Below, in pieces: positions 125 through 7,642 of a stretch of 64,000 nucleotides of DNA (the stretch's first letter is position 1; the number at the start of each line of letters is the position of its first letter). The notes beneath the pieces are model-generated. The model did no database searches. It saw nothing but the letters and a program-made list of their open reading frames with translations, and was not told the DNA's origin. Location: assembly GCA_009377585.1 (NCBI GenBank), contig WHTS01000011.1, positions 1-64,000 on the forward strand. The letters are read 5' to 3'. Both the position numbers and the translations under genes were made by a program. The DNA is from Betaproteobacteria bacterium (GTDB taxonomy: Bacteria > Pseudomonadota > Gammaproteobacteria > Burkholderiales > WYBJ01).

Positions 125-2479
125 TTAACTTCGAAGCACAGCCCCATGTTTTTGTTGGAGAACCTTGACGATATGCCGCATCTGGTCATCGACTTCCGCA
201 TCCGTCAAAGTTTTTTCAGTATCTTGCAATAACACTCGGAAAGCAAGACTTTTTCTACCCTCGAGAATGCCTTCTCCAGCATACACGTCGAACAGCGTGA
301 CGGCACTCACCAGAGGCCTTCCCGCGTCGACAATCGCGCGCTGCAGGAGCGCTGCCGAAAGCGTTTCATCCACGACCAGCGCCATATCCCGACGCACCGG
401 CTGCAAGCGTGACAGGGGACGATACGCGGGGAGCGAACGCGCGCAGATCGCATTCAGATCGAGCTCGAAGCCGACGCTTGCCGCGGGCAGCTCGTACTTC
501 TGCTGCCAGCCGGGATGCAGCGCACCGATCCAGCCGACCGGCTCGGCGCCGAGCAGCACGCGGGCGCATTGCCCGGGATGGAATGCCGGATGCTGCGCGG
601 GCTCGAAGCGCAAGCTCTCATGAGCGATCACGGCCTCGAGATCGGCTCGGATGTCGAAAAAATCGACCTCGCGGCTGCGTTCGCCCCACTGTTCCGGATG
701 TGCGTTGCCGTAGCAAAGCCCTGCCAGGCGCTCACTTTGCCGCAAGCCGGCACCGTCGCGCTCGAAGCAGGTCGCGACCTCGAATACGCGGATACGCTCC
801 TGCTTGCGGGCGATATTGAATCGTACGCACTCGACCAGGCTGCCGAGCAAGGTACTGCGCATGACGCTCATCGGGCTCGCGATCGGATTCAGCACGGCGA
901 CGGGTTCGGCGGCTGCGGCGAAATCGGCCTCGAGCTGACGGCCGACGAAGCTGAAAGTCACCACTTCGAAGTAATCGCGCGCCGCGAGCGCGCGCTTGAC
1001 GGCGCGAGTGGGCACCGCCCGCTCGGGCACCGGCAGCATCGGAGCCGACGCAACCGGCAGCGTCGGGGGAATGTTCTCGTAGCCGTGAACCCGGGCGATC
1101 TCCTCGATCAGGTCTTCCTCGATCTCGATGTCGAAGCGGTGGCTCGGCGCGGTCACCTGGAGCGTTCCGGCTTCTGGCGCGACTCCGAGTCCCAGACGCC
1201 GCAGAATCTCTTCGATGCGTGCCGCACCAAGCTCGATGCCAAGCACGCGCTGAACGCGCTCGGTACGCAGCTTCACCGCGTTTCGCGCCGGCAGCGTTCC
1301 CAGCGCCTCGGTCACCGGGCCCGCCTCACCGCCGCAGATCTCCAAAATCAATGCGGCTGCGCGTTCGATGGCGTCGCGCGCGAGCTCGAAATCCACCCCG
1401 CGCTCGAAGCGGTGCGCGGCATCGCTCGCGATCTCCAGGCCGCGCGAAGCCATCGCCACGGTGGCCGGATCGAAGTAGGCGCTTTCGAGGAAGACCGCGC
1501 GGGTGGCATCGGACACCCCGCTCGCCTCGCCTCCCATCACGCCGGCCAGGGCGAGCGCCTTGTGCTCGTCCGCGATCACCAGGTGCGCGGGGTCGAGCGC
1601 GATGTCGCGGCCGTCGAGCAGCTTCATCCACTCCCCGGGGCGGGCGAGCCGCACGTGGATGCCGCCCTGCAGCTGCGCCAGGTCGAAGGCGTGCAACGGT
1701 TGCCCGAGCTCGAGCATCACGTAGTTCGTGACATCGACGATGGCGGAGATCGGGCGCAAGCCGCAGCGTTCCAGCCGGCGGCGCAGCCACCCGGGACTCT
1801 GGGCGCGGGGGTTTACCGCTGCCATCACGCGGCCGCAATAGCGCGGACACGCCGGGCCTGCTTCGAGCTGCACCGTGCGTTCATCGGACAGCGTGGTGGG
1901 TGCGGTAAGGATTTCGGGCGATCGGAAGGGCTTGCCGGTCAATGCCGCGACCTCACGCGCGAGGCCGAGGATGCTCAGGCAGTCGCCGCGATTGGGCGTG
2001 AGCTTGAGCGTGAAGAGCCAGTCGTCGAGATCGAGGTGCTCTCGCACGTCCGCCCCGAGGGCGGCCTGCACGTCGAGCTCGAGCACGCCGCTATGGTCAT
2101 CGCCCAGGCCCAGCTCGCGCGCCGAGCACAGCATGCCGGAGGATTCCACGCCACGCACCTGCACGCGCTCGACTGCCAGTGCGGGCAAGCGGGCGCCCGC
2201 GCGCGCGCAGGCAACGCGCATTCCGGATCGAACGTTCGGCGCACCGCAAACGACCTGCAGGGTCTCCGTGCCGGTATCGACGCGGCACACGCTCAACCGG
2301 TCGGCGGACGGATGGCGCTCGAGCGCGGCGACGTTCGCAACCACGACGCCGGAAAACGCCGGCGCGACCGGCTCGCGCACCTCGACTTCGAGGCCGGCCA
2401 TCGTGAGCAGGTCCGCGAGCGCCTCGCTGGTGAGCCCCGGATCGATCAGGCTGCGCAGCCAGTTTTCTGAAAATTTCAT
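125..2479 (-). CDS. pheT: phenylalanyl-tRNA synthetase beta subunit
   Basis: This is the beta chain of the cytoplasmic alpha2beta2 enzyme that charges tRNA-Phe. At 784 residues it has full family length. It starts MKFSENWLRSLIDPGLTSEA, then an EMAP/tRNA-binding fold (about 39-150), the B3/B4 editing module (about 210-380), the B5 domain (about 400-470) and a C-terminal ferredoxin-fold anticodon-binding domain (about 690-784, with LQPVRRDMALVVDE). The ATG at 2477-2479 is the family start. It lies 59 nt after pheS on the same strand and is the last recognisable gene of the operon that starts at thrS. No truncation is seen. Confidence 0.97.
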   Translation of the reverse strand: MKFSENWLRSLIDPGLTSEALADLLTMAGLEVEVREPVAPAFSGVVVANVAALERHPSADRLSVCRVDTGTETLQVVCGAPNVRSGMRVACARAGARLPALAVERVQVRGVESSGMLCSARELGLGDDHSGVLELDVQAALGADVREHLDLDDWLFTLKLTPNRGDCLSILGLAREVAALTGKPFRSPEILTAPTTLSDERTVQLEAGPACPRYCGRVMAAVNPRAQSPGWLRRRLERCGLRPISAIVDVTNYVMLELGQPLHAFDLAQLQGGIHVRLARPGEWMKLLDGRDIALDPAHLVIADEHKALALAGVMGGEASGVSDATRAVFLESAYFDPATVAMASRGLEIASDAAHRFERGVDFELARDAIERAAALILEICGGEAGPVTEALGTLPARNAVKLRTERVQRVLGIELGAARIEEILRRLGLGVAPEAGTLQVTAPSHRFDIEIEEDLIEEIARVHGYENIPPTLPVASAPMLPVPERAVPTRAVKRALAARDYFEVVTFSFVGRQLEADFAAAAEPVAVLNPIASPMSVMRSTLLGSLVECVRFNIARKQERIRVFEVATCFERDGAGLRQSERLAGLCYGNAHPEQWGERSREVDFFDIRADLEAVIAHESLRFEPAQHPAFHPGQCARVLLGAEPVGWIGALHPGWQQKYELPAASVGFELDLNAICARSLPAYRPLSRLQPVRRDMALVVDETLSAALLQRAIVDAGRPLVSAVTLFDVYAGEGILEGRKSLAFRVLLQDTEKTLTDAEVDDQMRHIVKVLQQKHGAVLRS

Positions 2480-2538
2480 GTCGCAAGCATTCGTATTCCA
2501 CTCGGGACGTCCAGCTCTTGCCGCGCCCCGGACGGCGC

Positions 2539-3564
<1,026 letters not shown>

Positions 3565-3603
3565 CTAATGAAATCAAGCGTTCCCGGCGGTGTCCTGGTC
3601 GAC

Positions 3604-3672
3604 GTCATCCCCGTGAAAACGGGGATCCAGAAATCGTCCACCGTCCTGGACTCCCGCCTGCGCGGGAGTGAC
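3604..3672. repeat. paired dRS3-like inverted repeats between rplT and pheS
   Basis: Two 20-nt palindromic units each have a 6-bp stem and an 8-nt centre: ATCCCC-N8-GGGGAT (3607-3626) and ACTCCC-N8-GGGAGT (3650-3669). They face each other, and the outer flanks (GTC...CCAG and CTGG...GAC) extend the inverted symmetry over the whole block. The 6-8-6 architecture matches the dRS3 repeats described in Neisseria (ATTCCC-N8-GGGAAT). The block sits inside the operon, so it would be transcribed and fold between rplT and pheS. Confidence 0.7.
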
Positions 3673-3732
3673 GACAGGCGGGATGACCAGGCGCAAGCCG
3701 GCAACGAGCCGAGGAGCGCTCGGCGAAAGTCG

Positions 3733-4110
3733 CTACGCTGGCGCGGCGGGCTGCGCGGGCAAGCTCGCTTTCGCCGACTGCGCGAGCTTGGTAAACGCCG
3801 CCGGATCGTGCACCGCGAGATCGGCCAGCACCCGCCGGTCGACGTCGATCGCCGCGCGCTTCAACCCGTTCATGAACGTGCTGTAGGTCAGTCCCGCCTC
3901 GCGCGCCGCGGCGTTGATGCGGGCGATCCAGAGGCTACGGAACTGGCGCTTGCGCTGGCGCCGGTCGCGATACTGATACTGGCCGGCTTTCATCACGGCC
4001 TCGTTCGCGACCCGGAAGACGTTCTTGCGCCGGCCGCGGTAGCCCTTGGCCTGATTCAGAACCTTCTTGTGGCTGGCTCGGCTGGTGACGCCGCGCTTGA
4101 CTCGTGGCAT
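3733..4110 (-). CDS. rplT: 50S ribosomal protein L20
   Basis: L20 binds 23S rRNA early in assembly of the large subunit. The protein has 125 residues against the usual 117-119. The start [20 protein letters not shown] and the basic N-terminal helix are typical, as is the RNA-binding core with [20 protein letters not shown]. The few extra residues are a proline/alanine-rich tail ([12 protein letters not shown]), a harmless terminal extension. It lies 12 nt after rpmI, and the two are translated from one transcript. Confidence 0.97.
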
Positions 4111-4122
4111 GGCGGCGTCTCC

Positions 4123-4320
4123 TTATGCGTACGGCAGCATCGCGCGCACCGACTTCTTGTCGGCGGCGTGGACCTCGGTGGTCCCGCGCAATTGACGCTT
4201 GCGCTTGGTGGACTTCTTGGTAAGGATGTGACGCAGGTACGCCTGGCTGCGCTTGACGCTGCCGCCCGCGCGCACCTTGAAGCGCTTGGCAGCGCCGCTC
4301 TTGGTCTTGAGTTTCGGCAT
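4123..4320 (-). CDS. rpmI: 50S ribosomal protein L35
   Basis: L35 is a small basic large-subunit protein. Its 65 residues, starting [20 protein letters not shown], are full length. It lies between infC and rplT as in most bacteria. In E. coli, L20 represses rpmI translation through a leader RNA; here the 142-nt spacer after infC carries a tandem direct repeat (4360-4396) that could belong to such a structure, but no pseudoknot was modelled. Confidence 0.97.
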
Positions 4321-4359
4321 GACGACTCCTGATTATGACATGGCGATCGGTGGCCCCGC

Positions 4360-4396
4360 GGAGCGTTGTGAACCGTCGGAGCGCTTGTGAACCGTC
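4360..4396. repeat. tandem 18/19-bp direct repeat in the rpmI leader
   Basis: GGAGCGTTGTGAACCGTC (4360-4377) is followed at once by GGAGCGCTTGTGAACCGTC (4378-4396), which differs by one inserted base. Both lie in the untranslated spacer between infC and rpmI, read from the minus strand. The direct repetition is seen in the sequence. A role in L20 autoregulation or as a ribosome or protein site is only a possibility. Confidence 0.7.
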
Positions 4397-4462
4397 CACC
4401 ACTTGTTATATGAGCGGGACCGATTTCCGTGTCCCGGCTCGCTTGCATCGGCCCGCGCCTTG

Positions 4463-5053
4463 TCAGGCGGGGGTCGGTTTCGATCGTGCCGCAGCTTGTT
4501 CCGGCGCCGGGTCCGCTTTCGCCACGGGCTTGGGCAATACTTTCTTGGGCGACAGCACCATGATCATCTGCCGGCCTTCCATCTTGGGAAACTGCTCCAC
4601 CACCCCGTGGGGCTCGAGATCGTCGCGTATCCGCTGCAGCAAGCGGATGCCGAACTCCTGGTGCGCCATCTCCCGGCCGCGAAATCGCAGCGTCACTTTG
4701 GTCTTGTCACCCTCGTCGAGGAACCGGATCAGGTTTCGCAGCTTGATCTGATAGTCGCCCTCGTCCGTTCCCGGACGAAACTTCACTTCCTTGACGACGA
4801 TCTGCTTCTGCTTGAGCTTGGCCTCGTGCCGCTTCTTGCTCTCGCGGTACTTGAACTTGCCGTAGTCCATCAGACGGCACACGGGCGGCGCTGCGCCTGG
4901 TGCGATTTCCACCAGATCGACCTCTGCCTGCTCGGCCATCTGTTGCGCGGTAGCGATCGGCACGACGCCGATCTGCTCTCCGTTGACCCCGATCAGCCGG
5001 ACTTCCGACGACGTGATCTCGCTGTTGATCCTTGCCTCTCGTTCCTGTGCTAT
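4463..5053 (-). CDS. infC: translation initiation factor IF-3, ATA start
   Basis: IF-3 binds the 30S subunit, proofreads initiator tRNA and the start codon, and prevents premature 50S joining. The first ordinary start codon (GTG at 4961-4963) would cut off the conserved N-terminal strand. The frame continues upstream through [20 protein letters not shown], which is classical IF-3 sequence, to an ATA at 5051-5053. An AGGAG at 5062-5066 lies 8 nt before that ATA. This gives 196 residues. IF-3 genes are known to use rare start codons (AUU in E. coli) so that IF-3 limits its own synthesis; ATA is a rarer variant of that logic. The C-terminal domain has [12 protein letters not shown]. The start is 21 nt after the thrS stop. 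Confidence 0.93.
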
Positions 5054-5074: not shown

Positions 5075-6994
5075 CTATTCGGCCGTGCGGCTCCGGCTCG
5101 CGATCTCTGCCTGCAAGCGCGCGATCAATGCCGGCAACGGCATCGCGCCGAGATCCTCGCCCTTGCGATTGCGCACGGCCACCGTGGATGCGGCCCGCTC
5201 CTTCTCGCCGAGAATGAGCTGATAGGGCAGCTTCTGCAAACTATGCTCCCGGATCTTATAGTTAATTTTCTCGTTCCTCAAGTCGATGTGGACACGCAGA
5301 CCGGCCTCGCGCAGGCGCCTTGTCACTTCCTCGGCGTACTGTGCCTGGGCGTCGGTGATGTTCATGACCACCAGTTGCACCGGTGCGAGCCAGAGCGGGA
5401 AGGCGCCGCCGCAATGCTCGATCAGCATGCCGATGAAGCGCTCGAGCGAGCCGAGGATCGCCCGATGCAGCATCACCGGGATGCGGCGGGTGTTGTCCTC
5501 GGCCACATATTCGGCCCCCAGCCGGCCCGGCATGGAGAAATCGACCTGGATGGTGCCGCACTGCCAGACGCGAGCCAGCGAGTCCCTGAGCGAGAACTCG
5601 ACTTTCGGGCCGTAGAAGGCGCCCTCGCCCGGCAACCGCTCCCAGGCCACCTTGTGCTCGTCCAGAGCCTGGGCGAGCGCCGCTTCGGCCTTGTCCCAGG
5701 CGGCATCGTCGCCCACGCGCTTCTCCGGCCGGGTCGCCAGCCGGTAGACGATGTCGCCGAAGCCGAAATCGGCGTAGACCTCGATCAGCAGGCGGATGAA
5801 CTCGGCCACCTCGTCCTGGATCTGGTCCTCGGTGCAGAAGATATGAGCGTCGTCCTGGGTGAAACCACGCACGCGCATGAGGCCATGCAGCGCACCGGAG
5901 GGCTCGTTGCGATGACAGGAGCCGAACTCGGCCAGGCGCAGCGGCAGATCGCGGTAGCTGTGCAGGCCGCTGTTGAAGATCTGGACGTGGCCCGGACAGT
6001 TCATCGGCTTCACGGCATAGTCGCGCTTCTCCGACTCGGTCGTGAACATGTGCTCGCGGTAGTTCTCCCAATGGCCCGAGCGCTCCCACAGCACCCGGTC
6101 CATCACCAGCGGGGTGCGCACTTCCTGGTAGCCGTGACGCCGCAAGACCTCCCGCAGGTACTGTTCGATGCCCTGCCACAGCGACCAGCCCTTCGGATGC
6201 CAGAACACCATCCCGGGCGCTTCCTCCTGCAGGTGGAAGAGATCCAGCTGGCGGCCAAGCCGCCGGTGATCGCGCTTCTCCGCCTCCTCCAGCCGATGCA
6301 GATAGGCGTCCTGGTCTTCCTTCTTCGCCCAGGCGGTGCCGTAGATCCGTTGCAGCATCTCGTTGCGGGAATCGCCTCGCCAGTAAGCGCCGGCGAGCTT
6401 CATGAGCTTGAAGACCTTGAGCCGCCCGGTGGAAGGCACGTGTGGTCCACGGCAGAGGTCGGTGAACTCGCCCTGGCCGTATAGCGATATCGGCTCGTTG
6501 GCCGGGATCGCGGCGATGATCTCGGCCTTGTAGTGCTCGCCGAGGTTGCGGAAATACGCAACCGCCTCGTCGCGCGGCATGAGCCTGCGCTCCACCTTGA
6601 GATCGCGCTTGGCGATCTCCTGCATGCGCTTCTCGATCGCCTGCAGGTCCTCGGGGGTGAAGGGCCGCTTGAACGAGAAGTCGTAGTAGAAGCCGTCCTC
6701 GATCACCGGACCGATGGTCACCTGGGCGTCGGGGAAGAGCTCCTTGACCGCGTGCGCGAGCAGGTGCGCGGTGGAGTGGCGCAGGATTTCCAGCCCGTCG
6801 GGGTCGCGATCGGTGACGATAGCGACCTCGGCATCGCGCTCGACGCGGTACGAGGTATCGACGATCTTGCCGTCGACGCGACCGGCCAGCGCGGCACGGG
6901 CGAGACCGGCACCGATGGATTGCGCGACTTCGCCCACGGTGAGGGGTGCGGGAAAGCTGCGGATCGAGCCGTCGGGCAGTCGGATGTCAGGCAT
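5075..6994 (-). CDS. thrS: threonyl-tRNA synthetase
   Basis: This class II enzyme charges tRNA-Thr. The start is taken at [14 protein letters not shown] (6994), giving 639 residues, the normal length; GGGGAG lies about 8 nt upstream, whereas the longer upstream frame adds an atypical leader. Domains are TGS (about 1-60), the editing domain (about 65-225, with [16 protein letters not shown]), the catalytic core (about 240-540, with MNCPGH) and the anticodon-binding domain (about 540-639). It heads the thrS-infC-rpmI-rplT-pheS-pheT operon. An intrinsic terminator with an alternative antiterminator pairing lies just upstream. Confidence 0.97.
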
Positions 6995-7026
6995 TGGGAG
7001 GCTCCCCAGGGGGACAAAATGCGGAC

Positions 7027-7054
7027 AAAAAAAAGCGCGGTCGAGCCGCACTTT
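7027..7054 (-). terminator. intrinsic terminator between tRNA-Val and thrS
   Basis: On the minus strand, AAAGTGCGG (7046-7054), a 5-nt loop CTCGA and CCGCGCTTT (7032-7040) form a 9-bp stem with one G-T pair, followed by an uninterrupted run of eight T (three shared with the stem). It ends 32 nt before the thrS start codon. It may end the tRNA-Val transcript, act as the switch of a thrS attenuator, or do both. Confidence 0.85.
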
Positions 7055-7075
7055 CTTCCGTCACAAGCTCGACCG
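7038..7075 (-). promoter_or_regulatory. candidate antiterminator in the thrS leader
   Basis: CGGTCGAGC (minus strand, 7067-7075) is perfectly complementary to GCTCGACCG (7038-7046). The second arm is the loop plus part of both arms of the terminator at 7027-7054, so the two hairpins exclude each other. That is the layout of a transcription attenuator. The signal that chooses between them is unknown; no T-box elements are seen. Confidence 0.55.
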
Positions 7076-7147
7076 TATCAGCTTCGCTGCCCGATGCACG
7101 TTCGGCGATCCACGCACGCTATCCCTGGAAATTGACCGCGACCGATG

Positions 7148-7224
7148 TGGTAGGCGCGAGTGGACTCGAACCACTGACCCCCACCATGTCAAGGTGGTGC
7201 TCTAACCAGCTGAGCTACGCGCCT
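7148..7224 (-). tRNA. tRNA-Val (anticodon GAC)
   Basis: Cloverleaf of 77 nt on the minus strand with CCA encoded. The acceptor arm AGGCGCG pairs with CGCGCCT; the anticodon stem-loop is CCACC-TTGACAT-GGTGG with anticodon GAC; the T arm is AGTGG-TTCGAGT-CCACT. It decodes GUC and GUU. It lies upstream of thrS in the same direction, a common betaproteobacterial order. No integrase is nearby, so there is no sign that it serves as an attachment site. Confidence 0.97.
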
Positions 7225-7235
7225 GCGAGCGCGGG

Positions 7236-7263
7236 ATTGTAGCAAAAGCCCCCAACCATTCAA
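7236..7263 (-). promoter_or_regulatory. sigma-70 promoter of tRNA-Val
   Basis: On the minus strand, TTGAAT (7258-7263), a 16-nt spacer and TACAAT (7236-7241) form a near-consensus promoter. The GC-rich CCCGCGC after the -10 box is the type of discriminator found in stringently controlled stable-RNA promoters. The tRNA begins 11 nt after the -10 box. Confidence 0.8.
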
Positions 7264-7354
7264 ACCGCTTCCTGCGTGCGCGCATAGAATGGCAGGCTCG
7301 TCCCGCTCGAGCCCGCCTTATCGACCCAATCGAGCGCGAACTTGAGGAGCGAGC

Positions 7355-7642
7355 ATGGCCGCATACGTGATTGCCGAAGTCGAGGTCACCGACCCGCAAG
7401 TATTCGAGCAGTACCGGCGCGAAGTGCCGGCCACGCTCGCCGCCTTCAATGGACGCTTCGTCGTGCGCGGCGGCGCGTGCGAAACCCTGGAAGGCGACTG
7501 GCAACCCAAGCGCCTGGTCGTGCTCGAGTTTCCCGATCGCACAGCAGCCAAGGCCTGGTGGAGTTCGCAAACCTACGCGGCGCCGAAGGCGCTGCGGCAA
7601 CGCTCGGCGACGACGCAATTGCTGATCGTCGACGGCGTTTGA
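7355..7642 (+). CDS. DUF1330 family protein
   Basis: A 95-residue soluble protein of the DUF1330 family, a ferredoxin-like alpha/beta barrel of the dimeric type whose biochemical role is not established. It begins MAAYVIAEVEVTDPQVFEQY and has the family's FNGRFVVRGG and RLVVLEFPDRTAAKAW segments. GAGG lies a few bases before the ATG. It is a single-gene unit between tRNA-Val (divergent) and relA (convergent). Confidence 0.85.
   Translation: MAAYVIAEVEVTDPQVFEQYRREVPATLAAFNGRFVVRGGACETLEGDWQPKRLVVLEFPDRTAAKAWWSSQTYAAPKALRQRSATTQLLIVDGV

Follow-up and report, generated by a model that had tools for sequence, protein, structure and literature searches.

Organization of the thrS locus

In the 64,000-nucleotide stretch of DNA analysed here (the window), thrS, encoding threonyl-tRNA synthetase, occupies positions 5075-6994 and is 60-92% identical to the ThrS-encoding genes of 60 genomes; this gene and all features described below lie on the minus strand. 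Downstream of it are open reading frames for infC, rpmI, rplT, pheS and pheT (125-5053), which are presumed to share an operon with thrS because the gene order matches the known thrS-infC-rpmI-rplT-pheST arrangement. Upstream, a leader of 153 nt separates thrS from a tRNA-Val (GAC) gene (7148-7224), identified with both ARAGORN and Rfam. A sigma-70-like site, TTGAAT-16-TACAAT (7236-7263), is positioned upstream of tRNA-Val, where it is the sole site of its kind in 6900-7360; it is conserved in all four genomes of the genus and probably marks the start of a tRNA-Val-thrS transcript.

Two further features of the downstream genes were observed. The infC start appears, from its sequence, to be a non-canonical ATA (5053-5051), from which 29 residues run into the listed GTG-initiated frame at 4963-4463; E. 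coli infC likewise has a rare start codon, AUU. The gap between rplT and pheS (3535-3732) contains a palindromic element, CTGGATCCCCGTTTTCACGGGGATGAC (3604-3630), present once in the window and resembling the dispersed repeats of many proteobacteria, and no pheM-like leader was noticed in this gap on inspection by eye.

Terminator and antiterminator elements of the leader

The leader contains an intrinsic terminator (7024-7062), recognized by sequence and by a terminator search, with a full A-rich/U-rich stem of 17 bp. Its core is composed of the 5' arm AAAGTGCGG (7054-7046), the loop CTCGA (7045-7041) and the 3' arm CCGCGCTTT (7040-7032), with the U-run at 7034-7027. Two terminator-like sites were found in the region, compared with 0.4 in shuffled sequences. 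Just upstream of the stem, region 2 (CGGTCGAGC, 7067-7075) would form the 5' arm of an antiterminator; it is the perfect complement of region 3 (GCTCGACCG, 7038-7046), which begins with the final base of the 5' arm of the terminator, takes in the loop and extends three bases into the 3' arm. The terminator and the 2:3 pairing are mutually exclusive, as the first-pass annotation had proposed. When the upstream 85 nt are shuffled, 9 nt complementary to the terminator core are found in only 0.7% of cases, the duplex energy of region 2 against the core is likewise exceptional (p = 0.003 against shuffles), and CGGTCGAGC and GCTCGACCG at the observed spacing are found at a single site in the 6.76-Mb genome.

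A generic, repeated terminator was considered and rejected, since the motif, where present, is confined to the site ahead of thrS: the pattern AAGTGCGG-loop-CCGCRCTTTT is found in 14 of 60 genomes, with all matches directly upstream of thrS by position, and the terminator sequence of the window occurs in its own genome only ahead of this gene. In families f14, f24, f35, f36 and f37 (for example leaders L022, L028, L162, L163 and L172) tRNA-Val and thrS are only about 50-60 nt apart; the GTGCGG...CCGCAC terminator core is kept there, with no space for a leader ORF.

The U-run lies 32 nt from the thrS ATG in the window. In three congeners the distance is only 18-19 nt, which leaves little room for transcription to start past the terminator. 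Initiation of thrS transcripts within 6995-7026, named earlier as an observation that would speak against a switch, is accordingly unlikely. In Cupriavidus metallidurans, a mapped RpoD start is listed for thrS under the locus tag Rmet_R0015, of RNA-gene type (PMC9045368); we read this tag as that of the tRNA preceding thrS.

The leader ORF and its threonine codons

A short GTG-initiated ORF (7078-7113; codons GTG GAT CGC CGA ACG TGC ATC GGG CAG CGA AGC TGA) encodes MDRRTCIGQRS and is preceded at 8 nt by the Shine-Dalgarno sequence AGGGA (7122-7126). The frame, its Arg-Thr pair and a Shine-Dalgarno sequence (GAGG or AGGGA, 8-9 nt from the start) are conserved in all four congeners, the aligned frames in the other three encoding MDRRTCIGQRS, MTRRTCCRHCL and MTLRTCTKH, each followed by a stop codon; the last of these has three Thr codons among nine. 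Judged by these features the ORF is translatable, and presumably it is translated. The first-pass annotation had drawn attention to a GTG-initiated frame ending near the antiterminator arm and had described it as devoid of Thr codons. That frame exists (7117-7061), although it is truncated in the closest congener (G001) by a stop and is not listed in the other two, and it was set aside; the conserved frame is the overlapping one at 7113-7078, which does contain a Thr codon and whose counterparts in relatives carry runs of them. Together, the Thr codon of the conserved frame and these runs point to charged tRNA-Thr as the most likely signal. The window's ORF itself contains a single Thr codon (7101-7099), probably the sensing codon, alongside three Arg codons and one Cys codon, so that threonine specificity is less certain here and the case for a threonine response rests mainly on the relatives.

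Peptides rich in threonine are encoded at the equivalent place in other families (MTPRTTTTICERR, MFKRTTTTRISR, MSFRTTTTGTLNLG and MFRTRTTTQSC); by genus, the leader peptides include MFKRTTTTRISR in Vogesella, MTPRTFTEITSERR in Paraburkholderia and MTPRTLTETTSERR in Burkholderia. On the strength of these named relatives, the order in question is assumed to be the beta-proteobacterial Burkholderiales as GTDB defines it. A set of 81 leaders from 32 families, each with at least 55 nt ahead of a good terminator, was compared with dinucleotide shuffles. At least three Thr in six codons were found in 29 of the 81 leaders against 2.1 ± 1.5 in shuffles, and in 14 families against 1.9 ± 1.4. Threonine is the sole clearly enriched residue in the leader ORFs of this set, and across its families neither arginine nor cysteine is enriched. 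Four of the longer peptides gave no match to an NCBIfam leader-peptide family, and in some families the terminator stands right behind tRNA-Val and the leader ORF is absent.

The Arg-Thr pair, CGA ACG in the window (7099-7104), recurs in 55 leader ORFs from 17 families of the order, which contradicts the earlier suggestion of a lineage-specific mechanism. Arg is encoded by CGA in 52 of the 55 and Thr by ACT in 45, the Thr codon in the window's genus being ACG; in six window genes, CGA accounts for 4.9% of Arg codons and ACT for 5.7% of Thr codons. At the nucleotide level, CGAAC, mostly followed by T and often then by YGCA, is near-invariant in the leader ORFs of these 17 families (7104-7099 in the window). 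In these GC-rich genomes both codons of CGAAC(T), the one for Arg and the one for Thr, are rare, and conservation of the motif exceeds what the amino acids would need. Part of this conservation may serve a protector hairpin between regions 1 and 2: GTTCG, complementary to CGAAC, is found behind the ORF in 8 of the 55 leaders (1.7 expected), and the 1:2 hairpin is clear in some families (genomes G029, G237 and G285) and not significant in the window's genus. It is also conceivable, though doubtful, that the CGA-AC(U) core does more than sense Thr and, as an element of the RNA or of the codon pair, programs the ribosome to pause, in which case one Thr codon would suffice for control.

A second, diverged thrS was observed in one genome (L061 in G034, family f32). 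It is preceded by a much more Thr-rich ORF, ending in RFIVTTTTTTSTAT and a stop codon, behind which lies a strong hairpin without a U-run; the duplicated synthetase, perhaps of a resistance type, may have a separate threonine leader system.

Conservation of the antiterminator pairing

In an alignment of 13 leaders from six families, 91% of the cells of the 2:3 helix are paired, compared with at most 46% in slid controls. Double-sided covariation was absent from this alignment, the changes being one-sided (G-U), so that it provides no compensatory support. The row of one genome (G120) is misaligned in it; aligned by hand, its arm GGTGTG is opposite TACACC, which implies two double changes. We also used an alignment-free swap test, in which the segment behind each leader's ORF is paired with its own and with other leaders' terminators and the energies are compared. 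The leader's own terminator fits better among the 37 leaders that share the window's type (p = 5e-5) and among all 60 leaders (p = 1e-4), and with one leader per family the median p is 0.016 and the worst draw 0.17. The segment upstream of the ORF, used as control, gave p = 0.51, and PRT-type leaders alone gave no signal (p = 0.72). The check for covariation in the upstream arm that had been proposed for this locus thus yields only one-sided G-U changes among the closest relatives and a positive signal in the wider swap test.

Predicted attenuation mechanism and alternative explanations

The whole 153-nt leader is not unusually stable in its overall fold (MFE z = -1.2), and this value is uninformative. 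In the full-length leader RNA the terminator has the greater stability; the decision between the two structures must therefore be taken while the RNA is being transcribed, as in other attenuators. When the RNA is ended at region 3 with a ribosome placed at the Thr codon, all four congeners give the 2:3 hairpin as their best structure; with the ribosome at the leader stop and region 2 masked, folding gives the terminator. Region 2 begins 2 nt past the leader stop, within the footprint of a terminating ribosome. For the textbook distance of 12-15 nt from the A-site codon to the leading edge, the reach of the ribosome is computed as 7068-7065 at the stop, covering region 2, and as 7089-7086 at the Thr codon, leaving region 2 free.

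Based on these elements, we propose that thrS-infC-rpmI-rplT-pheST is controlled by ribosome-mediated transcription attenuation in response to charged tRNA-Thr, a reading to which we assign a probability of about 0.78. RNA polymerase would start upstream of tRNA-Val and transcribe the tRNA and then the short leader ORF with its Arg-Thr motif. With threonyl-tRNA plentiful, the ribosome is predicted to reach the leader stop (7080-7078) and mask region 2 (7075-7067), allowing region 3 to fold into the terminator, so that only tRNA-Val would be produced. With threonyl-tRNA scarce, stalling at the Thr codon (7101-7099) would leave the front of the ribosome near 7088; region 2 would pair with region 3 once the latter is transcribed, and in the absence of the terminator thrS-infC-rpmI-rplT-pheST would be transcribed. 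Four components expected of such an attenuator are found: a leader ORF with a Shine-Dalgarno sequence, a terminator, an antiterminator that excludes it and can be masked at the stop, and, order-wide, over-representation of Thr codons. The parts, their conservation, the threonine enrichment in relatives and the exclusive pairings are read directly from nucleotide sequence, and from them we infer ORF translation, stalling and cotranscription in the window's species, together with the magnitude of the effect. The earlier idea of a switch ahead of the thrS operon, with a translating ribosome choosing the fold, gains support from the conserved ORF, the threonine enrichment and the folding results.

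An alternative is that the hairpin serves only as the terminator of tRNA-Val, with thrS expressed by constitutive partial read-through or from its own promoter and the complementary arm incidental. The tRNA requires a 3' end in any case, and such a role would suit the several families that lack a leader ORF and have just a terminator immediately after tRNA-Val. We consider this unlikely, since conservation of the arm, of the leader ORF and of the Thr codons within it exceeds chance, while the 18-19 nt available in three congeners is too short for a promoter and any earlier start must pass the terminator. The attenuator could instead be of the same build but have drifted in this genus to sense arginine, cysteine or general translation speed through CGC CGA ACG TGC. 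Three Arg codons, one Thr and one Cys in the window's leader, Arg-Thr-Cys in all four congeners and the rarity of CGA would suit this reading, which is nonetheless improbable given that the controlled gene is thrS, that threonine and neither arginine nor cysteine is enriched in leader ORFs across families, and that one congener has the three Thr codons among nine noted above.

It would be still more surprising, indeed very improbable, if the leader held a T-box, a riboswitch or an operator bound by ThrRS. In E. coli, thrS is autoregulated through a tRNA-like operator, and in Firmicutes it is regulated by T-boxes. In the Rfam search of the leader region, however, only the tRNA reached threshold and no T-box match was obtained; weak matches to HPnc0260 were rejected, as they overlap the tRNA on the opposite strand. 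An operator is further disfavoured by the little space between the U-run and the ATG, and the hairpin GTGNCCTTTGGTANGGGTCACCACT, found in most gamma-proteobacterial thrS leaders fetched, is absent from the beta leaders.

Comparison with known systems

Ribosome-mediated attenuators are familiar from the thrL-thrABC, trpL and pheM-pheST systems of enterobacteria. The proposed thrS attenuator resembles these in its short leader ORF with relevant codons, the arm positioned just past the leader stop, the intrinsic terminator and the biosynthetic or synthetase gene downstream. It differs from them in that it would control thrS, is placed behind a tRNA gene, probably within one transcript, and has few Thr codons, always preceded by an Arg codon (CGA-ACN). 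In Streptomyces lividans, a weak threonine leader peptide ahead of thrS has been read as an attenuator (PMC8079986); there too a short ORF precedes thrS, with two Thr codons, but the start is leaderless, there is no clear terminator and the peptide, MKRVRPFLETTPGFVPAR, is unrelated. The attenuator survey of Naville and Gautheret mentions threonyl-tRNA synthetase a single time, where it is given as an E. coli protein subject to autoregulation (PMC2965389). Our search, which covered Rfam and the open-access literature, returned no account of beta-proteobacterial thrS being controlled by threonine attenuation.

The closest functional counterpart is found in E. coli, where ThrRS binds a tRNA-like hairpin operator and represses translation of its own thrS message; gene and purpose are the same, but control is exerted at the translational level. 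Inspection by eye showed an operator-like hairpin just before the ATG at most of the gamma-proteobacterial thrS loci fetched, which we take to be the E. coli-type ThrRS operator, and not in the window or the beta leaders. The best explanation is that the proposed beta-proteobacterial thrS attenuator replaces this gamma-proteobacterial translational operator. If correct, many beta-proteobacteria would control thrS by transcription attenuation through a threonine leader peptide, tying its control to tRNA-Val, IF-3, L35, L20 and PheST, and the small ORFs before thrS in genera including Burkholderia, Paraburkholderia and Vogesella would be explained. Between families the number of Thr codons varies naturally from one to five, and the comparison with E. 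coli would then represent a clean example of regulator replacement at a single gene.
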